From Nephrocerus scutellatus (taxonomy: Eukaryota > Arthropoda > Insecta > Diptera > Pipunculidae), in contig OX352763.1 of NCBI GenBank assembly GCA_947095585.1, positions 99,675,908 through 99,739,907 of the forward strand: DNA of 64,000 nucleotides, in the 5' to 3' direction. How positions within the stretch are numbered: position 1 is the stretch's first letter; every line of letters starts with the position of its first letter. Positions 1 to 58,330 of the stretch are shown here, one piece after another. The position numbers were made by a program, and so were the translations under genes. The notes beneath the pieces were generated by a model that was given only the letters and a program-made list of their open reading frames with translations, was not told the DNA's origin and made no database searches.

Positions 1-410
1 CTCCAAATTTTGTACAAAAAGTGTTGTCTATCAGAGATACACATGTGTATTAAATTTGAAGAAAATCGGGATAGTTTTTTAAAAAAAAGTTATGGAGCCC
101 CACGAACCCGTTCCGGGGTCTCCAAAAAAGTGTTGTATATCAGAGATACACATGTGTATAAAATTTGAAGAAAATCGAGCAAAATTTTGTAAAATATTTG
201 TATGGGAGCCCACCGGCCCGAGGGTCCTCAAAATAATAGAAAGTGTTGTCATCGGAGATATGCATGTGTGCAAAATTTCAATAAAATAGGACTTTGGGAA
301 GTGGGTCAAAAATTGATCACATGATTCCATGACACACAAATCCACAAACAAACAAACCCACAAGCCCACAAACACACGGGCAAGTGAAGTTATTATAGAG
401 AATTCAAAAA
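1..410 (+). mobile_element. HINE-like non-autonomous element, copy 1 (5' cut by window)
   Basis: Non-coding short element. Three related units follow each other at a spacing of about 110 bp, anchored on ACACATGTGTAT near 39 and 148 and a diverged version near 260. Each anchor is followed by AAATTTGAAGAAAAT-type sequence and a GGGAGCCC/GGGGTC-type G+C block. The last unit is the characteristic terminal unit (CAAAATTTCAATAAAAT, then AAGTGGGT). The 3' end reads ATAGAGAATT at 395-404. The element probably starts before the window. Short ORFs across it are by-products of the repeat. Confidence 0.85.
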
Positions 411-1985: not shown

Positions 1986-2073
1986 TTTCTTAGAATAAAG
2001 AAACCCTATGACACAATAGATCTTTTGGGTCACAGTGTCGGCCACATGGGCTAGGGTAAATATAAAAATAAAT

Positions 2074-2504
2074 AAAACAATCCATAAAAATTAAAAGGTT
2101 TCATGTAAATTCTCTACAACCCAAAAGTATACTGAATTCCACTATAAATGCTGAAATATAAAAATACATACGAAGCACTGCAACCCAACATCAAAACGAA
2201 CCCAATCGTAAAGCAAGCAGCGCTGTCCACAGCGCACAACGCACACAGAATACAGTAATTTTAGTATGAAATGATCTGATGCCGGGGAAAACAATTTGTA
2301 TGGGAGCACCCAGACCCCGCAGTCCGATCACTCTCAAATTTTAATATATAAAGTATTGTCACCGGAATATTGTCACCGGAATACATGTGTGCAAAATTTC
2401 AATAAAATCGGGCATTAGGAAGCGGGTTAAAAATTGATCACAAAATCTGACCAGCCAGCCAGCCAGCAAGCCACGGGCACGCGATGTTAATATAGAGAAT
2501 TTAA
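2074..2504 (+). mobile_element. HINE-like non-autonomous element, copy 2 (short form)
   Basis: Near-complete short form. It begins with CCATAAAAATTAAAA and the 5' inverted motif TAAATTCTCTA. A 5' module follows (CTGAATTCCACTATAAATGC, then a GCGCACAACGCACACAGAA block and GAAATGATCTGATGCC), then a single terminal unit (CAAAATTTCAATAAAATCGG). After that come a (CCAG)n microsatellite, CACGGGCAC, and the 3' inverted motif TATAGAGAATTTA. It lies directly downstream of the LOA remnant. There is no coding capacity. Confidence 0.88.
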
Positions 2505-2644
2505 AAAAAAATTGTTAGTTTTATATAGAAACTAGCTGATAATCCGGGACCCGCTGAACACACTTCACCCACAATGACTCACTCAAGACCCACCAAATGC
2601 CGATATTGGAACTCGTTACAGCCAAATATAAGTACAAATTTCCA

Positions 2645-3344: not shown

Positions 3345-5145
3345 CGGTAGATAAGAAAGGTAAACACGAGCTCAGAAGATATGAAAAAACAGTTCACCGG
3401 CGAAAGAAAGCAGTCTGGGAGAAGATTCTCGTCCGTGAACTGGAACAGTACAGAGAGCAAGGACCGCACCAGGCGCGGAAATTCTACCAAAGAGTCCGCG
3501 ATATGACGCAATATACACCGCGTTGCACATACTGCAAGGACAAAGAGGGTAATCTGATCACCGATCTTAAAGGCTTCTTAGAACAATGGGATGAGCACTT
3601 TAATGAGTTTAACCAATGACCGAAGAACATACTTTGCTGCCGCCACCAAGCATAGTCGAAGTTAGCAGAGCGATAAATCGGCTCAAAAATAATAAGGCCC
3701 CGGGATCTGATGGGATCCAAGCGGAACTGATAAAAATATGAGGTCAAACATTACACCAAGCAATTCATGAAATAATAGTGCAAGTATGAGAAGAAGAAGT
3801 TATGCCAGAAGACTGGCGAAGAGGCATCCTGTGCCCCATATATAAGAAGGGAGAACATTGTTGAGTAACGCGTATAAGATTTTCTCCTCTATCCTTCAAG
3901 ACAGGATAGCCCCATACGCTAAAGTCATCATTGGTCCATACCAGTTTGGCTTCATCCCAGGCAAATCAACAACTGATCAGATTTACACCCTAAGGCAGCT
4001 GATGGAAAAATGTCTAGACTTTCAAAACTCACTACACCATCTTTTTATAGAATTTAAAGCCGCCTATGATAGCATAGCCAGAGTAGAACTTTATAAAGCT
4101 ATGAGAGAATTCGGCATCCCAAATAAATTGACACGACTATGTAGGTTAACCATGACCAATGTTATAAGCCAAGTAAAAGTATCCGGATCACTATCAAGCC
4201 CATTCAACGGGCTCCGAAAAGGGGATGGACTGGCCTGCGTCCTCTTCAACCTGGCGTTGGAGAAAGTGATCCGAGGCTCTGATGTAACGGCGAGGGGAAC
4301 AATACTCTATAAGTCCATTCAGATACTGGCTTACGCAGACGATATTGACATCGTTGGTAGAAACCAAAGAGCTGTACAGGAAGCTTTCATCCAGATCAAG
4401 GAGGCAGCACGAAATCTGGGGCTGCACATAAATGAGAGCATGGTGGCCACGTCTGCGAGTATAAGATCCAAAATTGGTCCCTGAATGCAGATAGTGAAGC
4501 GCGAATTTGAAGTACTGCAATCCTTTAACTATCTCGGGTCAACTATAGCAGCCGATAACAGCATGGAACCAGAAATACGCGCATGGTTGCTTAAAGCCAA
4601 CAAAGCCTACTATAGTCTGTCTAGACTCTTAAAATCCAGGAATTTAACCATAACATCCAAGCTGCTGATATATAAGACAATGGTCATACCAGTACTTACA
4701 TATGGATCCGAGATTTGGGTGCTTAGGAAAAAGCATTCTGACCTCTTAGCCGCGTTCGAGAGAAAAGTCTTACGAATAATTGTTGGCCCCGTATGTGAGC
4801 TAGAACGATTTTGGAGACTCTATAAAAATGAGATCTACGAGCGTTACCGCGATGTCGACATCGTGAAGAAAATTAAGCTCGGTAGGCTCCGGTGGGTAGG
4901 ACACCTAGCTCGCACGAGCGAAGAGGATCCTGCTCGGAAAGTCCTTTGCGGTAGGATTTATGGAACACGACAGCGAGGCCGGCCAAGCCTACGCTGAAAG
5001 GATGGCGTAGACCAGGACGCCCAGAGTTTAAGGATGCCAAACTGGATGACATCGGCTCGAAATCAGGACCGGTGGAGAGATTTTTTGCGGGAGGCCAGGC
5101 CAGGACCGGACCCCGGTTGCAGAGCCAAATATGATGATGAATAAG
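3345..5145 (+). pseudogene. RTE-group non-LTR retrotransposon, linker, RT and C-terminal domain
   Basis: Best-preserved retroelement in the window, an endonuclease/reverse transcriptase polyprotein lacking its endonuclease. In order: linker (LRRYEKTVHRRKKAVW, FYQRVRDMTQYTPRC) at about 3370-3620; RT start (NNKAPGSDGIQAELI, PEDWRRGILCPIYKKGE) at about 3690-3855 with two in-frame stops; an open stretch 3858-4484 with GPYQFGFIPGKSTTDQI, a LFIEFKAAYDSI motif A in which E replaces the usual D, GLRKGDGLACVLFNLALEK, and an intact YADD; a thumb/C-terminal stretch 4485-4997 (FNYLGSTIA, LTYGSEIWVL, AFERKVLRIIVGPVC, GRLRWVGHLAR, ARKVLCGRIYGT). The 3' tail runs to GCCAAATATGATGATGA near 5141. The altered motif A and the stops make it inactive. 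Other copies in this window share the tail. Confidence 0.9.
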
Positions 5146-18520: not shown

Positions 18521-19197
18521 TTATTTAAAGTTCATATTGTGGCCATACTTTGGCGGTCAACAGCCAATTTTCTTTTGATGTTGACACTCGAAAATGCGCA
18601 CAAAAAGGGATTTTTTAAAAATGAACCGAAAACATTTTTTTAAGAAGGTAAAAATGTCAATCAATTAAAAAATACTTTTTCTACCAATTCAACAATTTTT
18701 AAATTCCCTAGCCGTTCTCATTTCGAATTTATTTTCAATCACATTTCTAAAATCCTCCAGATCACCTTCTCGCTCAAACAGCGAAAGTAATATCTTTACC
18801 TTTTATCTCCTGTTAATTGATCGAATGATATCTTCAAAAGAATTTTTCATTTACATTTTGTATCCACGGTATTTGTTGCCATTGCCCGAGACATTTTCAT
18901 CATCATCGTTTTCGTGATTAAATTGGCCGGCGGCTGAGATGAGCGTGACATGAAAGATGCCGTCTTGCAAAGAGGTCGACGTGGTGACACTTATAATACT
19001 GTTAAGTGACACTGGAAACACAACATGGGACAAAAGATTTGTTTATTAAAAACTCGTCAAACAATTCATTTTATACGTTTATGTATATCCGGTAATAAAG
19101 ATTGCTTCCTTGACAACAGCTTTTATAATGAGTTGTTGTTCTCTGTTGATTATTGCCATTTGCTTACATTAAATATAGATATATATTAATAAAAAAA
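18521..19197. other. No recognisable feature
   Basis: AT-rich DNA between a CR1-group copy and a HINE-like copy. No domain or repeat was recognised. Confidence 0.5.
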
Positions 19198-20092
19198 CAA
19201 CCCATAAAAATTAAAATTTTTCATCTAAATTCTCTAATCGCAGAAATTGATATGGGAGCCCCTCGATCCTGGGCCATTTTTTTTTATTGTAGAAGAAAAT
19301 CATCGAAACAAACATTTGACATCAGATGTTAAAATTGAAAAAGCTCAGATCATTTTATTCTGAGCACTTAGAGCACGCTCATACTCTGAGCAAATAAGAA
19401 ACACGAACATTTATCTTGAGAACTCTTTGACTGCTCTGAACTAATTTATGAAAACGCCAAATGACAGAAAATTGTGAAAACTTGTTGTTCTATCTGTATG
19501 TTGATATCGACAACAAAAAAAACGACATCAATAAAAATACAATTCAGTATATAATAAAAATGTAAGTTGAAGTAAGCATAAAACATTTATGTCTCGTTTC
19601 ATTTGCTGGGTTCATTTGTGCGTGCGCTAAGATTTCTCTCTCTCTCTCCACCACCACCAAACCATGCAGCGCAGCCGACTGCACAGCACACACCGCACAC
19701 AGTCCATAAAGGGCGACGAATATCTGATGCCAGTACAGATATTTAAAAAATGTATAAGGGCCTTGCGGCCGAACCCGGGACCCGATCACTACCAAATTTT
19801 CGAAAAAGTATTGTTTATTGGGTATACACATGTGTGTAAAATTTGAAGAAAATCGGGTAAATTTTTTAAAATTTTTGTTTGGGAGCCCCCCGACCCCGCA
19901 GCCCGAGGGGCCTCAAAATTTAATAGAAAGTGTTGTCTCCGGAAATACGCAAGTGTGCAAAATTTCAATAAAATCGGGCCATGGGAAGTGGGTTAAAAAT
20001 TGATCGCAAGAATCCACGACAGACGACCGACCGACGACCGACGACCGACCGACGACCCACGGGCAAGTGAAGTTAATATAGAGAATTTAAAA
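19198..20092 (+). mobile_element. HINE-like element, copy 3 (chimeric, two repeat units)
   Basis: 5' end with CCCATAAAAATTAAAATTTT and CTAAATTCTCTAA at 19201-19237. Then about 360 bases unlike other copies (19290-19655), including a (TC)n run near 19637. The 5' module resumes (GCACAGCACACACCGCACAC, ATCTGATGCC), followed by one internal unit (anchor near 19828), the terminal unit (anchor near 19945), a (CCGA)n-type microsatellite at about 20020-20056, CCACGGGCAAGTG and AATATAGAGAATTTA. The 360-base block may be an insertion or a replaced segment. Confidence 0.82.
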
Positions 20093-20579
20093 ATAAAAGA
20101 GTGTATAAATTTTTGTATCGGTATTTTTTTCCATTGTATCCTGAAGATGGGGTATATTGAACATTAAGCTTAAGGAATTGCTGTGTTTACTCCGAACATA
20201 TGGGAATATCTTCAATGTAAAGAAGTAGTGGAAAGCAAAAGCTTGTGTTTCCAGCCACATACGTGGGCTGAGAACGAATTTTTTCGCTTTGTTTACATAT
20301 GTACATGTCCACAGTCCACAGTCCAGCAGTTCTGGCACTGAGCGAAACTCAAGTATTTGATAATTCTGATACTTCGGATTTAAATCTGCCTGGGTATAGC
20401 TTAGTGCCATAATTTTTTCAACGGCGCAGGCTCGCAATTTATGTTGGTAGTGATGTTGCATTTAAATTTTTGCCTTAATCAAGTCAATGTTCCAATGCGG
20501 AATTTTAATTTCATATGGCCGAGAGTAATGGTACAAGGGCGCAACACTCACTACTGCTTTCTTTAAAGAAGAACTAACT
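20093..20579. other. No recognisable gene
   Basis: A 124-codon minus frame (20461-20087) is open but has no recognised domain. It lies between a HINE-like copy and a CR1-group copy. Confidence 0.45.
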
Positions 20580-22740
20580 TAGACAGAGTTTCAACTCGTG
20601 ACGAGTTTGATGCACTGTCTGATTCAATTGCAATTTCATAAATGATGATAACACTGAAATCGTTATTGCGGGCGATTTCAATGTACACAATTCTGTGTGG
20701 CTTCACCATTCTGGCCAGAAAACACACGTAGGAAGGGATGATCCTACAAGAATACCTGACATTGCAAATCATTCCGCGAACACCCTTGACTTGTTCCTTA
20801 CCTCACGTCCTGATAATTACTCCGTCAATGTATTATCGCCTATAGGCTCGTCTGACCATTGTGTTTTATCAGCTAATTTCTCGTTAAGAAACCACGCAGT
20901 TAGAGAAAAAACTCCCAAAAAACCGTATGGCAATACGAGAAAGCCTTAACAACTTCTTTAGGAAAATTAACTGGTCGCTATTGTTTCGTGATAGCAACGT
21001 GGATGGCGTCGCTTATGCAATCACAAACATCATCATTATTGGTATGAGAGACTTTATACCTTTCAGAAATAAGTCTATCACACCAAAAACGAATGGATGG
21101 TATGACTCAAGAGGTAAAGAGGCTTCTAGGATTAGAAAGGTGTGCTTTCGGTTTTACAAAACAAACCCTACTGAGGAAAACTTAATTTTAAACGAGCCAG
21201 AAATGATTGCAATGCTCGGTGAGTCAAATTCACCTACTAACAAAAATTTAGGCAAAAATACTACAATGTCCCAGAGTTAGTAAAAATATATGGTCATTAG
21301 TGGAAAGAATCAAAAATACAGCCTCGTCGTCAATTCCAACGCTCATTTATAATGACACTCCAGTTGTCAACTCTAAAGACAAAGTCAATCTGTATTTGCT
21401 GAAAATTTTGCGGGTAGCTCCACGCTTCCAGATTGTGCATTGATGCCGCATACACCTCCGAATATTAAACACTCTATGGGACATATCTTCATTCGTACTC
21501 GTGCAGTTGCTTAACGATCTCAACATTAAAAAATCCGCTGGGCCACATGGTATTACCCCATTGGTTCTGAAAAGGTGTTATTCCAAGCTGGCGTTACAAT
21601 TGCGTAAGCATTTTCATCTATCCTATTCGTCTGGACTTTTCCCGAAAAGTTGGAAAACAGACTTTGTTCAGGCAATACCCAAAAAAGGCGAGCCGTCGTC
21701 GTCTTCGACGTACCGACCAATAGCACTTACATCCATTCTTTTCAAGGTCATGGAAACGCTGATCAATTTTCAGTTCATAAAATATCTTGAAACCAACGAA
21801 ATCTTTAGTGACCAGCAGTACGGATTTCGTTGGGAACGTTCCACTGGTAATTTGATGGTATATCTTACCAAACAGTGGAACCGATCTTTGCATCAATTTG
21901 GTGAAAGCAAAGCTGTTGCACTCGATATTTCCATAGCATATGAAGACGAGAAACTGCTTCATTGGATTAGAAGCTACCAATTCAAGTTGTATTAGACGGT
22001 TTAAAGTCTGAAATACATCAAATAAATGCTGGCGTTCCGCAGGGCTCTGTTTTGTCCCCAACACTCCTGCTCATTTTAATTAATGATCTCTTAATCTGTG
22101 ACTTCTTATCCAATTCACTCTTTCGCTGACGACAGCACTCTGAGCTTCTCATATTCTCATATAAGTTTGCGGAACTTCCTTCACTTCTAATGTAGAAATC
22201 AAACAACTACATATGTTAAGAACGTCAAATTCTAAACTAGATAGCGTAATAAAAAGGGGAGAAATCAATCGAGTAGAATTTAACGCTTCGAAAACCCAAT
22301 GTTGTCTCCTGTCGTCTAAGCGATTCCCAAATCCCAGCGCTGCTCAAGAGAAGTGGCCAGTTGCATGTCACCTCTCCTTGAATTCAACCGCAATACTCGT
22401 TGCGCTCTAAATGCTCATCAGTTTACCTTCGGACGTACAGTTAAGTTCAGGGATTCGTTCTTCAGCCGTGCAATACGTATGTGGAATGCTCTGCCAAGCT
22501 CTGTCTTTCCATATCACTATGATCCACAGGCATGCAAAACACAAGCTCATAGATATCTCCTAGTTTCTTCTCCTTTCCATTAATGCCTACGCTGTGCCAA
22601 GCATATAGCCGAACATAAAAAGAGTGCGAATTATAAAAAAGCAAATCATATGAGAGGAAGGTCTCTTTTCATCTCCTGTGGTATCCGCAACGTCTTACAT
22701 CGAATGCACCTGGGTATAGACCTTAGAATACTTTCCAGAA
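20580..22740 (+). pseudogene. CR1-group non-LTR retrotransposon, endonuclease C-terminus to 3' end
   Basis: Endonuclease C-terminal half at 20650-20900 (EIVIAGDFNVHNSVWLHHS, NTLDLFLTSRP, PIGSSDHCVLSANF: the conserved GDFN and SDH endonuclease motifs). A linker follows at 20930-21250. RT runs at 21501-21995 (LNDLNIKKSAGPHG, TYRPIALTSILFKVMETLI, QQYGFRWERSTGNLM, VALDISIAYED), then AGVPQGSVLSPTLL near 22030 and a decayed adenine-side region with DDSTLS-like sequence near 22130. A C-terminal tail lies at 22353-22583 (FFSRAIRMWNALPSSVFP). Motif A reads DISIAYED where DISKAFD is usual, and frames shift repeatedly. The 3' end is approximate. Confidence 0.85.
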
Positions 22741-23003: not shown

Positions 23004-24120
23004 CAAAAAAAAAACAACCCATAAAAATACAATTTTTCATGTAAATTCTCTAATAGGAGATGTGTTAAAATTTGAAGAAAACCGGGCTAATTTTTAAAAA
23101 ATTTACATGGGCACCCCTAGGGCCTGTTCACTCCAAAAACTTTACAAAAAATTTTGTCCATCGGAGATACACATGTATATAAAATTTGAAGAAAATCGGG
23201 TTCTTTTTTTGAAAAATTGTTATGGGCCCCACGACCCCGGCCACCAAATTTTTTACAAAAAGTGTTGTCCATCGGAGATACATACGTATATAAAATTTTA
23301 AAAAAAATCGGGTTAAGTTTTTTAAAAAATTTGTTGGGACCAATGACCCTGGGGTCCGGGGTCTCCAAAATTTTTACAAAAAGTGTTTTCATCGGAGATA
23401 CATACGTATATAAAATTTGAAGAAAATCGGGTTAATTTTTTTTAAAAAAACTTTGGAGAACACGACCCCGGAGCCCGGGGTCTACAAATTCTTAAAAAAA
23501 AGTGTTGTCTATCGGAGATACACATGTGTTTTAAATTTGAAGAAAATAATTTTTTAAAAAAAAGTAATGGGGCCCCACGAACCCGGACCCGGGGTCTCCA
23601 AATTATTTACAAAAAGTTTTGTCTATCGAAGATACACATGTGTATTAAATTTGAAGAAAATCGGGTTAATTTTTTTAAAAAATTGCATTGGGCCCCACGA
23701 ACCCGGGCCCGGGGTCATAAATTTTTTACAAAACGTATTGTCTATCGGAAATACACATGCGTATTAAATTTGAAGAAAATCGGGTTAATTTATTAAAAAA
23801 AGTTATGGGGACCCACGAGGTCTCCAAATTTTTTACAATAAGTTTTGTCTATCGAAGATACACATGTGTATTAAATTTGAATAAAATCGAGTAAAATTTT
23901 GTAAAATATTTGTAGGGGAGCCCCCCGACTCCATGGCCCGAGGAGCCTACAATTTTAATAGAAAGTGTTGTCTCCGGAAATACACATGTGTGCAAAATTT
24001 CAATAAAATCGGGCTTTGGGAAGTGGGTTAAAAATTGATCGCAAGATTCCACGACCGACGACCGACCGACGACCGACATCCGTGCCACGGGCAAGTGAAG
24101 TTAATATAGAGAATTTAAAA
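23004..24120 (+). mobile_element. HINE-like element, copy 4: nine internal tandem units
   Basis: Longest copy. 5' end with CCCATAAAAATACAATTTTTC and TAAATTCTCTAAT. Then a head-to-tail array whose anchors (ACACATGTGTAT and variants such as ACATACGTATAT) lie near 23058, 23169, 23280, 23400, 23520, 23634, 23752, 23860 and 23982, so a period of about 108-122 bp. Each internal unit reads anchor, AAATTTGAAGAAAATCGGG, a T- then A-run, and GGGGCCCCACGA-type sequence. The ninth is the terminal unit (CAAAATTTCAATAAAATCGG). A (CCGA)n-type microsatellite, CCACGGGCAAGTG and AATATAGAGAATTTA close it. Its many ORFs (for example with repeated GPHEPGPGV) are repeat by-products. Confidence 0.93.
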
Positions 24121-25849
24121 AGTATATTTCTAGTCATGATCAGATGCTGCTTGAATAAGACATGCCCGCTCATCAGACCGTCAAGTTGGGATACCACGAA
24201 TATTTGTTTTGTGAAATGAAATTCGAAAAGAGACTTTATTTCAAAAAGTAAAAATACCTGCCGTCCGTCCGTGACTACGTTAAGGAACGGAAAAAAACTT
24301 TCTTGAATGTTGACGCACGAGTTACTTAAAATTTAGTTTTCCATGCGTATTTTTTGATACTTACAGTAGAAGTAACATTTTTGCAAGCTAAATTAATGAT
24401 TCACTTTTTTCCAATACAATATATTTATTCAAAAAATGCAACTTTAGGTTGAAAATTAAGTACGAATATTTACAACCTTTAGCATGCTGTACAAAGAACA
24501 TCTTAGCAAAATCCTTTAAGTAGTAAATTAGGGGACACCCTGTATATTAGTCCATTTTCTACTATAACATTTTTTTGCGAAGCCGAACAAAAAAATCCTT
24601 TCACGATGAGTGCACGTAACACGCAATCTATAACAACTGTTCAATAAATACCCATCAGATCCTCGTCTTAAGCAAATCAAAATTGATGGTTGTAGTTATT
24701 ATGGGTAGAGGACCCTAGTTTACCACTTGATTTTGTATCCTTTTACGGCCATACTCCTACACGACACATAAAAACAATACTCGTGTAATAAAAATCGTCG
24801 GACAGAAAGTGTGCGTGTGGCATTAAATGCTCCGTTGTACCACTGTCATTCACTACAATATCTTTCAAAGACAACATTTCGATGTCTCCTTTGTAGCATC
24901 AGCTCAATAAAATTCCAAGGAAATATTTATTGGCTACAGTAAGTGCGAAATAATAATTTTATTGTTAACAAGGACGTCCATGTTGCGAAAGATGGGGAGA
25001 AATTTTCCTGATGTTCACTTATGATAGGAACGATACACGCCCAACCAGCACATCCAGTCGCCACAGCCGCCCGACTTTATTTATTCCACATTACATTAAA
25101 GGAAAATGCTTAAGCAATAATGCACTCGACACTTTTATTGCTTTTTTGCTGCTGACCCAAGACCGAGTAGACTATGTTCGCAGTTCGATGTATATTGTGT
25201 TTCCTTTAGTCTTCTGGAGTCAAAGGTTGGCTGGCCAGCCTACACCATCAGGTCATTCTTAGAACGTATTTATTATTGTTTATGATGGAGTGATTTCAGT
25301 TCTATTCGAAAAGTGATAGGAATTTCAGTAGGCGAGCTGGAACTTTTATAAATTTGAAGATTTCCTTCAGTTGTCCTGATTCTCTGCACAATACTCGTAG
25401 GTTCGTCTATCTGCCCATTGCGTGTTGTACCAAAAAGCAATCGCGCAGCATCATAAGTTGTAATTTCTAAGTAGACATTGCAACTCTGGATGCTTTGGTA
25501 GTTATATCTGTTATGCCGGTTAATGATAAAATGTAATCATAATAAAAAAGGATTTTCGCGATTATTGCCTCAGTGTTTTATGGTTAGCGACCAGGGATAA
25601 AAGCAACTAATATTTCCGTAAAACTACTCGTAGATAGGAGTATCCTATCGAACGAACGGGAAAAGAAACCTTAATTTTTAATATTGAAGCTTTACGTGCT
25701 TACGATTGGTATTGATTTCTTTTATTCATTTTTATGTTATACAGGAATAATGTTCAATGATGCTGGGACTACAGATCGAGTGGGCGCCAAAGAAAATACA
25801 CTCACATATTAGAGTAGTAGATTCATGAGCCATTGTTATTTCCGTAAGC
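24121..25849. other. No recognisable gene
   Basis: AT-rich. The frame 25011-25262 (83 codons) has no recognised domain. No element ends seen. Confidence 0.5.
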
Positions 25850-29414: not shown

Positions 29415-29575
29415 GAATAATTGATGTACAAGCATATAAAATTTTAAGAAAATTAGGTAAATTGTGGCCCGAGAGCCACCAAATTTTAATAGGAAGTCTT
29501 GTCAAGTTTTTCAAAGTTTGAATTAACGAGCTAGGAAAGTGGACGCTATTTTTCACACGACCAAACCAATTTTTC
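29415..29575 (+). mobile_element. HINE-like element, copy 5 (very decayed)
   Basis: Retains ATAAAATTTTAAGAAAATTAGG near 29437, CCAAATTTTAATAGGAAGT near 29478, and GGAAAGTGG near 29532. These are in the order of the internal and terminal units of better copies. Both ends are lost. Confidence 0.6.
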
Positions 29576-30595: not shown

Positions 30596-31377
30596 GTATA
30601 CGTATTATTACAAAAACAGATTAAGAACACTTAACAGTGCCATCTGTGGATCAAGTAATATTGCATATAAAAATCATATGTATTGAAATTGTGTGACGGG
30701 AACTTTGTATAAATTATAGCACAATGTAATTCATGTAATCAAAGAACCGACACTTCTAGAAACTGCTGATTTAGTATAAATACCCCATATTTCATTGTAG
30801 TTAGATATCATAGAATAAACGAATATGTGTTGCGTTTCTATTTGCAAAATCCATTTCAAGCCACAATTTCGTAACAGTACCCACACAATTTCATTTAATA
30901 ACAAACCAGTAGCCCATTCCATGGCTAAAAGAGTGAAATAAAACCCTGTTTCGTTGTCTTATCTAAATAGAAAAATACCCTTTAATTCACATATCTCCAA
31001 CGGAGCCATTAATTATAATGACAGCAACTCTTTCAGCTGTTCTCAATCTTTCATAGTGGTAGTTATTCTCAAACTTTTAAATACAAATTGATAAATATTT
31101 TTGTTGTAAGACATTTAACTTTAAATGTAATAATGCAAACTAGGCAGCAGGTTTATTCGATGCTGCCACACTCACCTATATTTAAAATATTGCAAACCGG
31201 AGCTTCTCAGCTCGTCATATGGATAGTTGTAACTTAGTATAAAGACTGAATTAGTAAAAAAAAATTTAAGTTTCATGAAAAAATTCTTTTTTACTCTTAA
31301 AAGTACCGCCCTTGAGCATATTAGAAGCATAGAGTTAGACTTTTGTATTCGAACTAAAGTATACTTGCTGCTCACAG
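30596..31377. other. No recognisable feature
   Basis: AT-rich; short ORFs only. Confidence 0.5.
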
Positions 31378-31613
31378 CACACCAGCGCACACAGAATACA
31401 GTCATCTAATGCCGCTATATGGGAAAAAAACTTGTATGTGAGCTCCGTGGCCTGATCACTCTAAAAACAGAAAGTGTTGTCATAGAAAACACACATATGT
31501 GCAAAGTTTGAATAAAATCGGGCTTTAGGAAGTGAGCTAAAAATTTATCACAAGATTCTACCACCAGCCAAGCCAGCCACGGGCACGCAAAGTTAATATA
31601 GAAAATTTAAAAA
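31378..31613 (+). mobile_element. HINE-like element, copy 6 (5'-truncated short form)
   Basis: Starts within the 5' module (CACACCAGCGCACACAGAA, then TCTAATGCCGCTATATGG). It carries one terminal unit (CACACATATGTGC, AAAATCGGGCTTTAGGAAGTG), short CCAGCCAAGCCAGCCA, CACGGGCACGC, and the 3' end AATATAGAAAATTTAAAAA. The inverted motif has one change from the consensus. Confidence 0.85.
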
Positions 31614-32282: not shown

Positions 32283-34420
<2,138 letters not shown>

Positions 34421-34699
34421 GAAATGAAATGAAATGAAATGAAATGAAATGAAATGAAATGAAATGAAATGAAATGAAATGAAATGAAATGAAATGAAAT
34501 GAAATGAAATGAAATGAAATGAAATGAAATGAAATGAAATGAAATGAAATGAAATGAAATGAAATGAAATGAAATGAAATGAAATGAAATGAAATGAAAT
34601 GAAATGGAATGAAATGAAATGAAATGAAATGAAATGAAATGAAATGAAATGAAATGAAATGAAATGAAATGAAGTGAAATGAAATCAAATGAAATGAAA
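34421..34699 (+). repeat. (GAAAT)n pentanucleotide array, about 55 units
   Basis: Nearly perfect GAAAT repeats over about 279 bases, with isolated variants (GGAAT near 34606, GAAGT near 34671, CAAAT near 34686). The minus-strand frame with repeated SFHFI is a by-product, open only because the pentanucleotide has no stop in that frame. Confidence 0.98.
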
Positions 34700-34743
34700 C
34701 CAAATCAGTCAATCAGTCAGAAATACAAAATTGGACTAAACAA

Positions 34744-35170
34744 TAAAAAAACTACCCATAAAAATTAAAATTTTCTAACAACCAAAATATGCGTCTAAAA
34801 ATATACTGAATTCCACTATAAATGCTGAAAAATAAAAACACATGGGAAAACCTGCGTGCTTTTGTTGTAAAAAAACAAGCACTTATTCGAAATCAGCGCT
34901 ACACAGAGCGCATACAGTCATTATAGTATGGCGTGAATTGATGCCAATATATGGCATAATTTTTGAAAATATTGTATGGGAGACCTCCGATCCCATGGCC
35001 CGATAAATTCCAAATTTTAATAGAAAGTGTTACCACCAGATATACATACGCGTGCAAAGTTTAAATTAAATCGGGCTTGGGGAAGTGGATGAAAAATGAT
35101 CCCAATATTGCACCCCCGAACGAACGACAGACAGAACCATACCGACGCGAAGTTAATATAGAGAATTTAA
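34744..35170 (+). mobile_element. HINE-like element, copy 7 (short form)
   Basis: 5' end CCCATAAAAATTAAAATTTTC, then CTGAATTCCACTATAAATGC, an extra CTTTTGTTGTAAAAAAAC-like stretch, GCGCTACACAGAGCGC (itself a small palindrome), and ATTATAGTATGGCG. The terminal unit follows (anchor variant ACATACGCGTGC, then AAATCGGGCTTGGGGAAGTG). A CGAACGAACGACAGACAG microsatellite and AATATAGAGAATTTA end it. It starts 45 bases after the (GAAAT)n array. Confidence 0.87.
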
Positions 35171-36602
35171 TAAAGAACAGCTAAAAAAAGAAAGATGGAA
35201 AACTATAACACTAATACAGAGTGAATGTAATATCAACTTAAAACAAGCCTTTACTTAATTTATAAAATAATATAACCGAATTAGAGGTTAATTTATACAC
35301 GCGGAGTTTAAAATTCAAGTTAGTGCTACTACATATTCCTGGACTCTATATTAACTAAATGTAAACAAACTGCCGTTTAATAAGTTTTAGGAAGGGACTA
35401 GCAAGTAAATAAGATAGTGTCTGTCTTTCTACTCGTGAAACCAGAATATTTTTTTTATGAATTAGATAAAGGACAACATAATAAGAAATAAGAAGTTTCC
35501 TGAATAGACGCAAGTGGTTTTTTCCATTATAAACTTTGTGATTGTCATAATGAACATACATCCATCCATACATGAAAATGTTGAAAAGCGGCCAGCACCG
35601 TAACGAACTCGATTTATAAATAAATTACGTGAACTCAACAACATAGAGTCACAGAAGGCGAATTAAAAATTCAAAATGCCTTACTGGGGTGTTGACCATA
35701 AGAGGAATAATGCCGTTAAAATTTTACTACTAGGTACATCCTTTGGTCATTTGGGGGTTTTCAAGCAAAAGAATTTCACATACACACACTGATAACAAAT
35801 CATTTGTTAATAGTGGTGGTAGTGTACTGCCAACTACTGCCCACTCATAACGGAAACTATTCGCACCGAAAAGGTTTAATAAGAGGTTGCAGTCATCCCT
35901 TCCCGACAAACCTTAAACTCTACTTCTCCATTTTGGGTATTTCATTTAGAATTGAATGCCTATATACATATTTGGATATCTATAAATTGTCTTCTTCACA
36001 AATTACTAGCAAAAGAGCAATCAAACTAGAGGGGGCATCTCACAAAGTTTTAATACAATCCTATCCCAAACGCTTAAAAATAACTGGGATGATATATACA
36101 ACCGTTGTATGCGGCGGTCGGTTAAATGAAAATACTTTGAATTATTCATCTGATACACATGGCGATATTATGGCTTTGACCAAATCAACCTCTGTTTAAC
36201 GATGACCACGTCCATACTTCCAACTGGCAGTTACTATTACAGCAAAGAGAAGACAAGTTTATCTTTCACATGAATATTGTCCATATATGTACGTTTGCAT
36301 TGGTCAAGGGAAAACAACGAAATCGTTTTAAATATTAAAAACTGAAACAAGAACTAGAAATAATTAAAGGGAGAAATTAAATTTCTGCTCGGGTTTGCCA
36401 TATTTTTATGTTCTCCTACGAATTGAGTTATGCTTTTAAATAACAAAATTCAAATCGTAAAAAGTTAATTTGCTATTACTTTGATTTTCATTGTTACAAT
36501 GCTACATCAAACATCAAATTGAATCAAAGTGAATAAAATGAACTGGCTTATAGGTAAATATTCATCACTATCTGTCCAAAATAATTTTTCGCTTAGCAAT
36601 GT
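35171..36602. other. No recognisable gene
   Basis: A 131-codon plus frame (35804-36199) is open but has no recognisable domain, and its composition is unremarkable. No element ends seen. Confidence 0.45.
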
Positions 36603-44885: not shown

Positions 44886-45079
44886 CCTTTTCTGGCACTA
44901 CTCCGTCTGCACTTGGAAAAGAAAAGAAAAGAAAACAACAACAGTACCAAATCTAATTCAAATAATTATACTGAGACAAAATCACTGATTTCCCAAGAAT
45001 TATATTTCTGGTAAAAGGGGGAATGCGTGTCTCTACAACCAGGAACTTGTAGTTACAACAGCAAAAATAAAAACAATGC

Positions 45080-45517
45080 ATACAAATAAAAATGTTTCGT
45101 CATCGGAGATACAAATGTGTATAAAATTTGAAGGAAATCAGGTTAATTTTTAAAAAATTATATGGGAGCCCTGGGACCATTTCCAAATTTTTACAAGTAG
45201 TGCCGGCCATATGATTAAATACGTCTGTGTAAATCTGAAGATTGGGTAACTTTTTTAAAAACTTTGTTTGGGAGCCCCCCGACCTCGGGTCCTGATCACT
45301 TCCAAATTTTTACAAAAAGTGTTGTCCATCGGAGATACACATGGGTTAAATTTTAAAAATTATATGGTAGCCGCTCGGCTGTTGTCCATCGGAGATATAC
45401 ATGTCCATTAAATTTGAAGAAACTCGGGTAAATTTTTGAAAAAAAATCGTATGTGGGGCACGACGATTTTTACAAAAAGTGTTGTTCATCAGAGATACAC
45501 ATGTGTATAAAATTTGA
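45080..45517 (+). mobile_element. HINE-like repeat units without element ends, copy 8
   Basis: Four to five internal units with anchors near 45110, 45330, 45395 and 45495 (CATCGGAGATAC, ACATGTGTATAAAATTTGA). They are separated by GGGAGCCC blocks. No terminal unit, microsatellite or 3' inverted motif follows. The sequence passes directly into a different tandem array. Confidence 0.78.
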
Positions 45518-45549
45518 GCCAAAGTCTGCCGCTTGTAAACTGCAGGTTT

Positions 45550-46590
45550 AATCAAATTTTTCCGTATTTTCGACAAGTTTTAGGTCCTTTTTAACCACCT
45601 TCCACACGACCTAGAGAGCTGAAATTTTGTGAGTGTCTAAATCCAAAATAGAATTTTTATATTCCGAGTATGACGCGTGTCGCGCGTGTGATAGATTGAA
45701 TTTCTTTTTTCGACTTCTTTGAGGTGCTTTTTAGCCACCTCCCACATGACCAAGAGAGATGAAATTTGTGAGAGTTAGTTAGTTAGTTAGAAACAGCATT
45801 TTTTATATTCCGCGTATGACGCGTGTCGCATGTGGCGCGTGTGATGGGTTGAAATTTTTGTTTCGACTTATTTGAGGTGCTTTTTAACCACCTTCAACAC
45901 GACCTAAAGAGTTGAAATTTTGTGAGTGTCTAAGACCAAAATAGCATATTTTATGTTCCGCATACGAAGCGTGTTGCGCTTGTGGCGCGTGTGCTAGGTT
46001 TAAATCGCGCCATTTTCTCGTTTTTTGAGGTATTTTTTAACCACCTATCGCACGACCTAGAGTGCGGAAATTTTATGAGCACTGTAGCGCTTTTTTGTAC
46101 CCGAAAACGAAGCTATTTTACATTTTACTTGTTTTCTGATTAACCAAGTATCTATTTCAGTTCTTTAAAAACAAACTTTCGGGTAAGCGTGTTGCGTTCC
46201 GCGTGTAGCGCGTGTGATGGGTTGCAATTTTTTTTCGACTTCTTTGAGGTCCTTTTTAACTACCGTTGACATTTTTTGAGTATCTAAGTCCAAAACAGTA
46301 TTCCCAAGTTTATAAAAACGCGGGTTAATCGTCACTTTATGCAATACCTCTTATCACACCTTTATATTCTGTGTATGACTCGTGTTACATTTCGCTTGTG
46401 GCACGTGTGATGGTTTGAAATCGCGCCATTTCTCATTTTTAGGTCTTTTTTAATCACTTTTCGCACGAACTAGAAGGCTGAAATTTTGTTACCGGCTCAA
46501 TGTCAGGGGCCATTTTGATATCCTGCTTTCAAAGCGTGTCGCGAATTGCATGTGGCTCATGTAAAGCGTGGAAAAAAGAAAATTCTTTCT
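45550..46590 (+). repeat. Degenerate tandem array, about six units of ~145-220 bp, CpG-rich core
   Basis: Units begin near 45559, 45702, 45861, 46012, 46231 and 46428. Shared order: TTTTCGACTTCTTTGAGGTC, TTTTTAACCACCTTCCACAC, GACCTAGAGAGCTGAAATTT, TGTGAGTGTCTAA, TATTCCGCGTATGACGCG, TGTCGCGCGTGTGATGGGTT. Units 4 and 5 carry extra inserted sequence. The GCGTGT/CGCGTG core is very CpG-rich against an AT-rich background. Non-coding. Confidence 0.85.
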
Positions 46591-48260: not shown

Positions 48261-50404
48261 TGTAGCTTATTTCCTGGCCAACTGCCTACTCGTCTGAATC
48301 TTTACTCATTACTGAGACCCATACAAATTTAAGCTAATTTACAAAAAGGTCACAATTTTGATCATGCAATATACCTAAATTCGACTAGAAAGGCCCTATT
48401 TTTCTTCTAGGAATTAATGTATTAAGTATACAAGAAGCCCTAGTACGTATCGCACAAACACCAAAGACTCACATACTCTACCGCAAGAATTGTCTATTAG
48501 AAATTCGCCAACGACCTACTACGCTGAGTACATCGGAGATCGGATCTCGTCCCTGATCATCGACATTAATCAGCATTCAGGTCGGTAAATACTTAGATGG
48601 AAGACCATTAAAAATACGAAACAGCCCGATGGTTGCTTTATTCATATGGGCATACATATAATAATATAAATAGATGGCTTCTTTTGCCTGCTATGGTCTT
48701 CAATTGCTCACTTGACTGATGGCATTTTCGTTTTTTTAGATCACGTATGTGAGCAAAATCAAAGAGTATACTGATATCTCTATACTATAGGCAACAAAAG
48801 ACCTAGTAAATATACGCGAGATCATTAGATTGATTATTAAATTATTATAAAGAAGTCCATGTGAAAGACAAGTAAAGATACTGATTTAGATACAGACAAA
48901 AAAATCAATAATATTTTAAGACAAAAATATTAACTCTAACTTCAAATATTATCAGTCTCAAAAAACATTTAATGCTGGGTTTTCCAACCCTATCTTGTAA
49001 GGGACTCCCAACCAACATATCTTGTAATGGATTAGCTGCCAGCAGTAATAAAAAACGATAATTAGTTGTGTTTTAATATTTATCTTTTTCGACTTATAAC
49101 ATATTCCCCAAAAGCATTTGCTTATAGAGGCAATTTTAATGAGTTTCATCTTTAATATCTGCACACAAACACTTGGGTATTCTTTATATGTGTATCTATA
49201 AGATTCTGGATGGCAAGGATTTCCAAATTTATTACACAATAAATTTATATAAGACATCGTGTGCATTGTGACAAGGTAGAAGTAGTAGAGCCGCGCAGGT
49301 CATGGAATCTCTCATCACCATTATTGTCTTCGCGCATGTTTCAGATTTTTGTAAAATTCATTAGCAATAGAAAGGGTTGAGTTTCCCGTTCGTCCCGCAT
49401 ATATATGTTCTAGTATTTGTATGTGCAAAATAACTGTTAAAGCGATAATTTGTAATGCGACGCGAAACCTAATACATCCCCAGTGCGTATGCTTCAATAA
49501 TACCTAAATATTTAAAACTGTATGAGGGAAAGGATATATATTTTCAGCAAAGACGATGCGTCGAAACTTTCTTTACACTCGTGTATTCTTTAACGTTGCT
49601 TTTACTACCCGCACTCATCGACGGTCGGTCGTTCCTTTCTTCAGTTTAGGCGAAATTAATTTTTTAATAAGCTAATCTATCGCGGATAAGCAAACGAACG
49701 GGGCAAAAAGGACTTATACTCGTTGACACATATTTGTTTAGGAATACTTTCAAGCATCCAAGAACGAATGATACTACATACTGATAAAGTGTTTGCACAA
49801 AGATTCAAATATGTCAATGTTTGAACATACAAAGTTCTCCAGTGTCTTCATAGAGAAGCACAGAGTTGAAGGAAATCCCGTATCTTCGGGAGTGTGCTTG
49901 CTTGTTTGTAGATAGTATTTACTTTCGTAGAAAATCGTTTCACCAAAAGTCTAGTTGTACTTTTGGTTCTCTGAAGGCTCTTTTTAACAGCGAAATTAAA
50001 TATGCTTTGGTTAATAATGTTTTTAATGATAGTGCTGATCTTTAAAAAAATTAATTGATTAAAACTAAAATCAATCTATTATGGAGGAGCACTTTTAGGG
50101 CTTGACTTTGAATTGCATACGTCACGGTTTGTATGTAATATTACGATACACAAACAGTGATAAATAGAGTTCAGAAAAGATCAAATGACCTTGAATGTGC
50201 ATCTGGAAGCTTATACAAATGACATGTATGGTAATGACGAAATTTAGGCATCAAATTCAACAAAAGCGATATAAAACAATCATAGAAAAGATAAGATCGA
50301 GCTGCAACAATTTGATACCCTGTCCAAAAAAAAGTGAGCAATACAACAAAATGCAATGGATAGAATGAGGTATTACAAAAACGAGAATATGATTTTTATT
50401 TTAT
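48261..50404. other. No recognisable gene
   Basis: AT-rich. Minus frame 49266-48958 (102 codons) has no recognised domain. No repeats matched. Confidence 0.5.
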
Positions 50405-50706
50405 TTTTTAAATTCTCTATATTAACTTCGCGTGCCCGTGGCTGGCTGGCTGGTTAGATTTTCTGACCAATTTTTAACCCACTTTCCAAAGCCCGATTTT
50501 ATTGAAATTTTGCACACATGTGTATTTCTGGAGACAAACTTTCTATTAAAATTTCTATTAAAAATTGAGGCCTCAGGGCCGAAGGGTGCCCATATAACAT
50601 TTTTAAAAATTAACCCGATTTTCTTTAAATTTTATACAAATATGTATCTCCGATGGGCAACACTTTTTGTAAAAATGGGGCCCCATAAAAATTTTTAAAA
50701 AAATAA
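50405..50706 (-). mobile_element. HINE-like element, copy 9 (reverse orientation, two units)
   Basis: Read on plus it opens with the inverted 3' end TTTAAATTCTCTATATTAAC, then GCGTGCCCGTGGCTGGCTGG (microsatellite), the terminal unit in reverse (CCGATTTTATTGAAATTTTG), and one internal unit in reverse (TTATACAAATATGTATCTCC). The 5' end is lost near 50706, where CR1-group sequence begins. Confidence 0.85.
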
Positions 50707-50739
50707 TTAAGCGGTTTTTTTTTTCAATTTTAAACACGG

Positions 50740-50945
50740 GTGTATTGTATTGTTATTGTTGTGCGGATAAAGAAGGAATCTATGCATTGGTTGGTACGTC
50801 AGAAAATAGGTGTAATGGTAGACCCGTGAGCTCGATTTGAGGCACGGCTTTTTCGGTTGGGCTGAAGGATGGGCGGGATTCATCTGGTTATTTCCTTTGA
50901 ACAACGCTTATTGATAAAGCGGTGTATTGCATTACAGTTGTCATG
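50740..50945 (-). mobile_element. CR1-group C-terminal scrap
   Basis: Shares GTGGTAGACCCGTGGGCTCG-type sequence and GGGTTAAAGAATGGGCG-type sequence with 17240-17300 of the minus CR1-group copy (here AATGGTAGACCCGTGAGCTCG near 50814 and GGCTGAAGGATGGGCG near 50858). On minus this reads NPAHPSAQPKKPCLKSSS-like, RVYHYTYF. A short, 5'-truncated copy. Confidence 0.6.
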
Positions 50946-53484: not shown

Positions 53485-55770
53485 ATGCTCACTTAGACCA
53501 TTCGTGGTCCTTTGTGCTTTGTTCAAAGCCCTTAATGAATCGAAGTATATCTCGCACTTTGCCGTTTTCGAGATCTGATAGGTTATTCATTAACCGCTTA
53601 CCTAAGTATTTGTGCCTTCTGTGCATTAGTACCGGACATGAGCAAAGAAGATGTTCTATGGTGTCGTCCTCCTCCTCGTCCATGCAGCTTATGCTGAAGT
53701 CATTATATTCGACACCCATCCTTCTCGCGTGTTTCCCTAGAAGACAGTGTCCTGTCATTATCCCTACAACCGTTCTTAGTTTACGTCTTTGTAGGGAAAT
53801 AAGCGCAGTTGAGCGCTTCAAGTCCAGCTTCGGCCTGACCTGTCTTGATATATTGCAAGAGGCGGTGTTTTCCCACCTTACTCTACCTCTTTCCGAAACT
53901 CAAGTTTCAGTGTCGCCATAGGACTCCTTACCTCTGCCCTTTCCGGTAGCAGCTGGAGAGCCGTACCACGTCTAGCTAACTAGTCCGCCCTGCAGCTTCC
54001 TAAAAATCTGTGTGGCCCAGGACCCAAATGATCCTTATATTAAACTGCTCACTCATCTCGTTAAGAGAGGAGTGAAATCTGAACGCCACATTAGATTTCA
54101 GCGAGACCGCCTGCAACGATTTTATGGCCGCCTGACTGTCCACATAAATGATAATCTTCTTTGAAGATAATACATTATGCTTCAGCCAACTCATAACCTC
54201 TTAGATCGCTATCACCTCAACCTGGTATACGCTGCAGCGTTCTGGTAGATGGACAGGGATGCTTACTTTCAGCTTGTCACAGAAGACTCCTGCTCCTATT
54301 TTACCGCTTAGAGCCATCCGTGAAAAACTTTATTGTGTCATTATCGTTTACGGATCCACTCTTACAGTCTTCTCTAGAGGGTACTATTGTCCAAAACCCG
54401 TTTCGTCAGCTCTTGCTTTAGCGATTTAGTTATGGTGGAGTGCCCCTTTTGAAGACTTTTCCACTGATTGACAGCTAACATTCGTGTAGTTTTTACGTGC
54501 TTTTTTCCATAGCTGGCCACCATACGCTTACCTCGTACAGTACCAAAGTGTAAAGCCAGTGAATCAACTTTGGTTTCAAACCCCATTTTTTACCAATGGC
54601 GTTCTTGCATGAGTATAAAGCAATATTCGCTTTATTTAGTCGTTCTATTATATTAGGTTTCCAGCTTAGTTTCCTGTCCAAGGTTGTCCCAAGAAATCTT
54701 GAGTTATCAAAAAAACTAAGGGGGTACCATTTAGTGTTGGCGAATCAACTGTTGGAATTTTATATTTCCTGGGGAAAAGGACAAGCTCTGTCTTATTTGG
54801 GTTGACGCCCAGACCGTTTTTATTTGCCCATTCTTTAACGATTAGGAGCGCATCTTGCACAACTTCCTTAATCGTTCTGAGGTATTTTCCTGAGACAGCT
54901 TACGCTACATCATCAGCATACGCTACCAGTTTTATCCCCTCTCCTTCCAGTTTCAACAGTAATTCGTTGATTACTATATTCCAGAGAAGAGGGGATAATA
55001 CACCTCCTTGCAGTGTTCCTGTAACTGCATGCATCTCTAAGATGGAAACACCCAGCACCGCACTATTAATTCTGCCTAGAAGCATATGATTAATTGGTCT
55101 GCTTATAGGGTAGTCCACCTCTAGGTCTGACAGTCCTTTACAGATTGCCTCTGTTTTAACACTATTGAACGAACCCTCGATGTCCAAGAATGCTAATAGT
55201 TTATACTCCTGGGAGTATATTGATTTCTCAATTGTGCTTACTAAGGACTTTGCCCAACTTCTAGGTTTTGCCTTACCCCTTATATGAATATCTATCGGTC
55301 CTTCCAGAGTTTTCAGAAGAAAGGATGATAGAGTTATAGGTCTTAGGTCTTTTGGGTAGCCATGTATAAAAACTCCTTGACTTCCTTCCAAGCCCTAGGA
55401 ATGTATATCAGCTTTATACACCCTGTGAAAATTGCCTCTAATCATGGGAGTATCCACTCCAGGTTATTCTGAATTTCTGCAGGGATTATCCCATCTGGGC
55501 CAGCCGATACAATGGGTTTGAAACCGCTTCGCCCACTGGATTCGCATTTTGTTCGCGATGCCTTTCGTTTGAACCGAGTTAGATTCCAGATGTTGCCTAA
55601 TTATTTCTGAGTCCCACACCCGAGTTGAGTCAGGAAAGTAAGTCTCTATGAGGAGTTCCAACGATTCCTTACTCGAGATCGTCCATGAACCATCGGGTTT
55701 TATTAAATAACTTGGAGTGGTTTTTGTCATAGTGAGAATCTTTCGTAGGAATCCCAGCTCGTAAGACCTG
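53485..55770 (-). pseudogene. LOA-group non-LTR retrotransposon, ORF2 from RT linker to C-terminus
   Basis: Largest LOA piece. On minus, from 55770 down: pre-RT linker (SYELGFLRKILTMTKT, LIKPDGSWTISSKESLELLI) 55760-55600; RT 55391-54900 with DLRPITLSSFLLKTLEGPID, LAFLDIEGSFNSVKT (motif A intact), TGTLQGGVLSPLLWNIVINE and VAYADDVA (catalytic pair intact); NPNKTELVLFPRKYKIP 54800-54750; MDRKLSWKPNIIERL thumb 54681-54630; RNase H near 54250-54000 (IIIYVDSQAAIKSL, IIWVLGHTDF); C-terminal SCMDEEEDDTIEHLLCSCPV at 53690-53630. Frameshifts and stops separate blocks. R1-type elements lack RNase H, so LOA or a close relative. Distinct from the 690-1985/60560-64000 family by thumb sequence. Confidence 0.87.
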
Positions 55771-56984: not shown

Positions 56985-58330
56985 TAGAAAAAAGACTTTA
57001 AAGCCGCCTATAATAGCATTGCTAGAAAATAAATTTATAAAGCCATGAGAAAACTCGTCATCACAAATAGACTGACACGACATTGAAAGATGGGTCCATC
57101 ACCAATAAAATAAATAAATATATATAAATAACAGCCCATTTGTCATGTAAATTCTCTAATTAGAAAAAGTATTCTGAACTCCACTATAAATGCTGAAATA
57201 TAAAAACATATACGAAGCACTGTAACCCAACAAAAAAAAACAACCCCAATCGTAAAGCAAGCGCTACTCATAGAGCACAGCACACAACGCACACAGAACA
57301 CAGTCATTATAGTATGAAATGATCTGATGCCGCTATATGGGGAAAAAAATTTGTATAAGAGTCCCCGCGACCCCGCGGTCCGATCACTCTCAAATTTTAA
57401 TAGAAAGTATTGTCACCGGAAATATACATGTATGTATTTCCATAAAATCGGGCTTTGGGAAGTGGGTTAAAAATTGATCAGAAAATCTGACCAGCCATCC
57501 AGCCAGCCAGTGCACCAGTCACGGGCACGCGAAGTTAATAAAGAGAATTTAAAAATAAAAATGGTCGGATCACTATCAAGCTCAACAATATCTATAACGG
57601 GCTCCGAGAGGATGGACTAGCCTAACTGGAGTTAGAGTTTGTTTACCGGCGATAGGAACAATCCGCCATAATCCCATTCATATACGCGGACGTTATTTAA
57701 ATAATCTTTAGAAACTTGAGTGCTGAAATAGAAATGGAGCACTGGTTAAGAGAAGTGCAAGCCTTTAATTATCTCGGGTCAATGGTGGTAGCCGATAACT
57801 GCAGGAAACCTTAACTTACCTTACGAGACATTACAGTCAAAAACTATTTTAATCTGTCAACACTCCTCAAATTTAAGGATTTAACCCCATAACAATCTAG
57901 CTGCCGGTCATACGAGTAATATCGATAACAAAACGCAATCTGAAATCTTAGCCGCGTTCGGGAGAAAAATCTTACCAAGAACTGTTGGCTCTGTTGTGAT
58001 TTGATGAAGCCCGATTCCGGAGACTCGATATTGATGAGATCTATGAACATTACTACGATGTCGACGTCTTGGAGAAAATTATGCTCGGTATACTCCGGTG
58101 CACAGTAGGACACCTAACTCACATTAGCGAAGAGGATCCTGCTCGAAAAGTCCTTTGCGGTCGAATTTATGAAACACGGCAAGCCTACGGCAAGATGGCA
58201 TAGTTAAGGACAAACAGAGATTTTGGATTCCAAACAAAACGATATCGACCCAAAATCATGATAGATGTAGAGATTTTTTGAGGAAGGACATGACAAGACC
58301 GCTTTTTTTAAGTGAAACATGATTATGATA
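56985..58330 (+). pseudogene. RTE-group copy split by a HINE-like insertion
   Basis: FKAAYNSIARK near 56994-57030 and YKAMRKLVITNRLTRH near 57035-57085 match 4050-4145 of the large RTE copy. A HINE-like element occupies 57104-57556. RTE resumes at about 57561 with GTCGGATCACTATCAAGC and ACGGGCTCCGAGAGGATGG (4180-4230 equivalent). It continues with a deletion over YADD, FNYLGSMVVADN near 57772-57805, AFGRKILPRTVG near 57953-57990, DEIYEHYYDVDVLEKIMLG near 58033-58090, HISEEDPARKVLCGRIYET near 58121-58180, and a tail near 58330. Stops and frameshifts throughout. Confidence 0.85.
57104..57556 (+). mobile_element. HINE-like element, copy 10 (short form, nested in RTE)
   Basis: AACAGCCCATTTGTCATGTAAATTCTCTAAT-type 5' end at 57128-57159 (split motif: CAGCCCAT, TAAATTCTCTAA). 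Then CACTATAAATGCTGAAATAT, GCACACAACGCACACAGAA, TATAGTATGAAATGATCTG, one terminal unit, CCAGCCATCCAGCCAGCCAG at about 57492-57511, CACGGGCACGCG and AAAGAGAATTTAAAAA. Flanked on both sides by RTE sequence that was contiguous in the parent element. Confidence 0.9.

Follow-up and report, generated by a model that had tools for sequence, protein, structure and literature searches.

The window, i.e. the whole 64-kb stretch of DNA that was analysed, includes nine dispersed copies and one decayed fragment of a small, non-coding element whose copies differ in the number of central tandem units. In the features listed below, the ends are named 5′ and 3′ as in HINEs, the copies carry the prefix c, and TRF, profile or other evidence is given in brackets.

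23005..24121, minus strand: complete element c23, HINE 5′ end at 24121 and 3′ end at 23005 (both end profiles, TRF, subterminal repeats or subTIRs)
24107..24121, minus strand: HINE 5′ end of c23, four T and the subTIR TAAATTCTCTA (24107-24117)
24052..24077, minus strand: GTCG-type microsatellite of c23 (TRF)
23892..24013, minus strand: terminal unit of c23, on the side of the HINE 5′ end (groups with the other seven terminal units)
23087..23891, minus strand: seven internal units of c23 (unit profile, phasing)
23005..23052, minus strand: HINE 3′ end of c23, with the subTIR (23042-23052), a weak AT palindrome that is not significant, and a T-run
1..410, minus strand: c1, truncated at the window edge; the terminal unit, one full internal unit and part of another (profiles)
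2066..2507, minus strand: c2, both ends, terminal unit and core (profiles)
19186..20093, minus strand: c19, both ends, an internal and a terminal unit, and other sequence amounting to several hundred bp
29423..29568, minus strand: tenth copy, decayed; parts of one internal unit, one terminal unit and the block that follows
31370..31613, minus strand: c31, without HINE 3′ end, terminal unit only (profiles)
34741..35173, minus strand: c34, with terminal unit, core and both ends, although no 3′ subTIR was found
45064..45521, minus strand: c45, HINE 3′ end adjoining some five internal units, whole or partial
50403..50746, plus strand: c50, in the opposite orientation; terminal, one internal and one partial unit, HINE 3′ end not found
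57104..57555, minus strand: c57, both ends, terminal unit and core (profiles)

The array of c23 was reported by TRF at 23060-24013 with a period of 119, 8.2 copies and a score of 741. The first-pass annotation had counted nine units in the copy at 23004; when the count is phased so that the terminal unit stays whole, eight of them are full (seven internal and one terminal, 107-122 bp) and the ninth amounts to only about 30 bp. Across copies the units are 98 to 129 bp long. A profile of the right ends, on the strand used in that annotation, had eight matches in the window (E values from 1e-52 to 3.6e-39) and one of the left ends had six (about 1e-15 to 9e-11), both profiles having been built from the very copies that they then found; neither located further ends of comparable strength in the window. 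The differences in unit number between dispersed copies were borne out by the profile searches in the window. Ten copies had been claimed and nine places listed, and a copy is present at all nine; the tenth consists only of the decayed fragment at 29423-29568, in which parts of an internal and of a terminal unit stand in the proper order and no ends were found. The profile matches of this fragment are weak (E values of 0.019 and 0.2), and its best BLAST E value to c23 is 4.5e-6 in a search against the nine elements only. The claim that all copies share their ends and a terminal unit holds for part of the family: both ends are found in five of the nine copies (2066, 19186, 23004, 34741 and 57104), the copies at 31370 and 50398-50746 are without the left end, and copy 1 runs off the edge of the window. 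At 45064 the right end is missing, the profiles having detected neither a terminal unit nor a HINE 5′ end.

Immediately next to the truncated c45 stands a second tandem array (45555-46490), whose sequence differs and whose units measure about 150 bp. Modified forms of the motif TTTTTAACCACC are found there at 45588, 45728, 45881, 46034, 46253 and 46447; the array is absent from the TRF output and is reminiscent of oyster HINEs in which one array follows another. Two simple repeats also lie in the window, a (GAAAT) repeat at 34421-34699 (about 56 copies, 97% matches) that ends about 40 bp from c34, and a (TTA) repeat at 32285-32514 (about 77 copies, 100% matches).

Read on the strand of the first-pass annotation, the right end of a copy consists of the microsatellite, a conserved block and TAGAGAATTTAAAAA. 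On the opposite strand most parts of a HINE can be recognised: the 5′ end reads T-run, TAAATTCTCTA, conserved block and microsatellite, and the 3′ end reads TAGAGAATTTA, followed by AT-rich sequence that includes a weak palindrome and then by a T-run. A complete element includes, from 5′ to 3′, a T-run, the subTIR, a conserved block, a short microsatellite, a conserved block and the terminal unit, followed by further units and/or a shared core, the inverted subTIR, the AT-rich 3′ segment and a T-rich border. The published order of parts in HINEs is 5′ subTIR, microsatellite, central repeats, 3′ subTIR and palindrome, in the sections cited of PMC7492417 and PMC4067079. The order in the window matches this one, and the copies can with good confidence be considered a family of HINEs, i.e. 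non-autonomous Helentrons, a class that also holds Drosophila DINE-1 and oyster Cg_HINE. The orientation of the units with respect to the ends is identical in nine of nine copies (unit profile search). As in a HINE with tandem repeats, the 5′ block carries a microsatellite, and the central units vary in number and keep one direction. The microsatellite beside the HINE 5′ end differs among copies in motif and length; by eye, it is GTCG- or CTGG-like in six of eight copies. No Helitron domain was detected in the 20 checked of the 74 window reading frames of at least 90 amino acids, Rfam gave no window match at gathering scores, and the exact 25-base pattern of the HINE 5′ end had no match in viral contigs. 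As is inferred for the class, the Rep/helicase of an autonomous Helentron elsewhere would copy the element by rolling circle from its 5′ to its 3′ end, and the copy would then insert into T-rich DNA.

The exact 11-bp subTIR occurs nine times in the window, always within the elements and inverted at the two ends, as against a mean of 0.05 occurrences in 20 simulated sequences. Forms with one mismatch are found at seven further sites; element ends account for three of these, and the remaining four are outside the elements. All eight HINE 5′ ends include the subTIR (five exact, three with one mismatch), and the exact form is present at four of the six HINE 3′ ends, those of c34 and c45 being the two in which it was not found. 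At least five T in a row are present at seven of the eight 5′ borders (c34 reads TTTATT), and the six 3′ borders are all rich in T, with runs of four or more, these being raw counts in an AT-rich background. T-runs stand at both borders. In c23 the subTIR is set back four T at the 5′ border and up to 37 nt at the 3′ border, the exact depth depending on how many T are assigned to the element. Mite HINEs have subTIRs 2-4 nt from the 5′ end and about 38-60 nt from the 3′ end according to the section cited of PMC4067079, values close to those of c23, and the unequal depth at the two ends fits the HINE class. A search with exact words of at least 6 bp found, in eight of eight ends, no second inverted repeat beside the 5′ subTIR, a trait of DINE-1 and oyster HINEs; mite HINEs are likewise described without it in that section. 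Folding of the 3′ segment compared with shuffles gave z values from -1.10 to +0.52 in six copies, none significant, and short pairing segments were seen after the 3′ subTIR in c19 and c23. The 150-bp flanks (n = 15; neighbouring repeats led to the omission of those to the left of c34 and to the right of c45) showed no mutual similarity with E values up to 0.01, which indicates that the copies are separate insertions.

The 11-bp inverted repeats at both ends could also be the true transposase-binding ends of a cut-and-paste MITE with internal tandem repeats. DINE-1 itself is classed as a MITE in PMC2374699, and MITEs with internal arrays possibly feeding satellites have been described (in the part cited of PMC12628747). 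On the other hand, the subTIR depth in c23, four T at one border and up to 37 nt at the other, and the placing of the microsatellite and the T-runs as in HINEs speak against a MITE, which we consider quite unlikely. It is less probable still that recombination or segmental duplication dispersed a satellite of which the copies are the remains, their ends being no more than conserved flanks: c45 is single-ended and has the second array directly adjoining it, as such a history might leave behind, but the subTIR, the place of the microsatellite and the T-rich borders are common to one-unit and array copies, and the 15 flanks are mutually dissimilar. Short arrays in general are open to misassembly, and collapse or expansion during assembly had been named beforehand as something that might account for the unit numbers; since the 21 pairs of internal units in c23 are only 67-91% identical, with no identical pair among the 20 units in the matrix, we regard an assembly error as highly improbable.

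The units were compared in a tree of 20, eight terminal and 12 internal; incomplete units (in c1, c19, c23 and c50), the later c45 units and the 29423 fragment were omitted. The terminal unit had been described as a diverged version of the internal one, and the profiles agree in both directions: the right-end profile matches internal units (E values from 9e-8 to 0.34) and the unit profile matches terminal units. In the tree the eight terminal units form one group with a support of 98/98. A single clade of the seven internal units of c23, a group chosen for the test after a first tree had been seen, was rejected with a p-AU of 0.018, because the units of c1 and c50 fall among them on moderately supported branches, and a single clade of all c23 units was rejected more strongly (p-AU 9.6e-06). 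Only three of the 17 inner branches were starred, so that the finer branching order is uncertain. By identity, the internal unit of c50 is nearest to c23_i3 (84%) and that of c1 to c23_i5 (87%); the position of these units among the c23 internals suggests that the internal units probably predate the spread of those copies. It is therefore probable that terminal and internal units were already distinct within an array before the family dispersed.

The identity of internal units is higher within a copy (77.4%, 22 pairs) than between copies (71.7%, 44 pairs), which indicates that some array growth was local and took place after dispersal. The arrays would thus probably be partly inherited and partly grown in place. 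The idea that the array grew from one ancestral unit is sustained in that the units are homologous and some growth was local; separate growth in each copy is not supported, given the single group of terminal units and the rejection of the c23 internal clade. That internal units of different copies should be closest relatives agrees with the raw identities, the nearest relative lying in another copy for eight of the 12 internal units, in the same copy for four and being a terminal unit for none; five of those eight relatives are c50_i1, a short unit that may score too high because part of the alignment is missing in it. Six of the eight terminal units are nearest to another terminal unit, and c50_T and c34_T are nearest to c50_i1 (c34_T in a near tie); in the tree, even so, both belong to the terminal group. 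Damage to c45 makes the limits of its units c45_i1 and c45_i2 uncertain. Reverse-strand self matches had pointed to a large hairpin in every unit; as a common feature this was discarded, since only two of the 20 units clearly beat shuffles (with RNA parameters, z was -4.09 for c23_i4, -3.50 for c23_i7, -1.95 for c1_i1 and between -1.06 and +0.60 for the rest).

The one-unit copies c2, c34 and c57 have in common a sequence of roughly 200 bp, the core, between the left end and the unit. The last part of the core is also found in c31 and c19, and in c19 the internal unit sits between this part and the terminal unit. In c23 and c45 the left end runs directly into units. These few copies suggest that units may at first have been added at the junction of core and terminal unit, with loss of the core coming later. 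Changes in array length would have preceded as well as followed dispersal, with slippage, unequal exchange or partial rolling-circle copying between units as the mechanism, and the terminal unit beside the microsatellite block would have been kept as a boundary. A narrower reading, which we find unlikely, is that units were gained at one place only, 3′ of the terminal unit, during rolling-circle copying, with the terminal unit as a fixed boundary. It draws on the closest internal pair of c23 (i5 and i7, 91%), which is located near the terminal unit, on the c23_i5-like unit of c1, which adjoins its terminal unit, and on the position of the c19 unit. The identity of c23 internal units by distance is 79.4% for neighbours and 79.6, 75.7, 77.0, 74.3 and 77.1% for lags 2 to 6, a slight fall that is clear neither for nor against neighbour duplication or polarity. 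If growth at one place were true, array growth in Helentrons would have a direction.

The family is probably a new HINE family of a known kind; its relatives are compared here by description. Variable central repeats and satellites arising from such elements have already been published, and elements of this kind are well known from flies, mites and oysters. The likeness to Drosophila DINE-1/INE-1 (sections cited of PMC2374699 and PMC4067079) is one of architecture; the subTIR is 13 bp there and 11 bp here, and in the window family no second inverted repeat was detected and the 3′ palindrome lacks significance. HINE-Mo of Metaseiulus occidentalis, as presented in the same part of PMC4067079, has a similar subTIR spacing and T-rich targets, lacks both the second inverted repeat and the DINE-1 core, and includes microsatellites or tandem repeats in some copies, but its subTIRs are palindromic and that of the window family is not. 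Helitron2_Cv of Calliphora vicina, compared by description (PMC3630058, in part), has 11-bp subTIRs and a GTCY-type microsatellite, and differs in having a partial inverted repeat and 9-bp hairpin stems. Together with Helitron3_Cv, which has no 3′ subTIR in that description, like two copies here, it is non-autonomous and frequent in one genomic region, as is the case in the window; the word "tandem" is absent from the main text of that paper. The Cg_HINE elements of the Pacific oyster (section cited of PMC7492417) have short satellite-like arrays between conserved flanks, in fixed orientation and mostly with few units, and some include two arrays in a row; by description, their units are predominantly 140-180 bp, against 98-129 bp here. 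DINE-TR1 (Dias et al. 2015, via the part cited of PMC9957191) is a fly element, also present in Bactrocera tryoni, with central tandem repeats as here, and differs, by description, in its units of about 150 bp and in their expansion into satellites.

An array such as that of c23 could possibly act as a seed for satellite DNA. In the 64-kb window, TRF and the unit profile detected no long array of the unit without element ends. A satellite derived from the central repeats of DINE-TR1 forms uninterrupted arrays of up to about 82.6 kb (PMC9957191), central repeats of about 50-500 bp vary in number within species (PMC2374699), and oyster arrays most commonly have two or three units, with 29.3 in the longest (PMC7492417). 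Slippage and rolling-circle models are reviewed in PMC12628747. Taken together, the passages cited from these four papers identify the satellite seed as a published general model for this element class, and as it stands the family confirms published knowledge. It does permit a copy-by-copy comparison of core with one unit, part of the core with two units, and an array without core. If copies across the genome confirm this order, the family could reveal whether or not unit gain has a fixed site, which bears on how transposons seed satellites.

The window also includes LINE fragments at 3846-4481, 20623-20946, 21444-21992, 54903-55394 and 63219-63557, with four RVT_1 matches and one Exo_endo_phos_2 match. 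One of the LINE reverse transcriptase fragments, which suggests that the host is probably an insect and perhaps a fly, had 111 protein matches, and the only species named among those shown is Anopheles coluzzii, with 59% identity.
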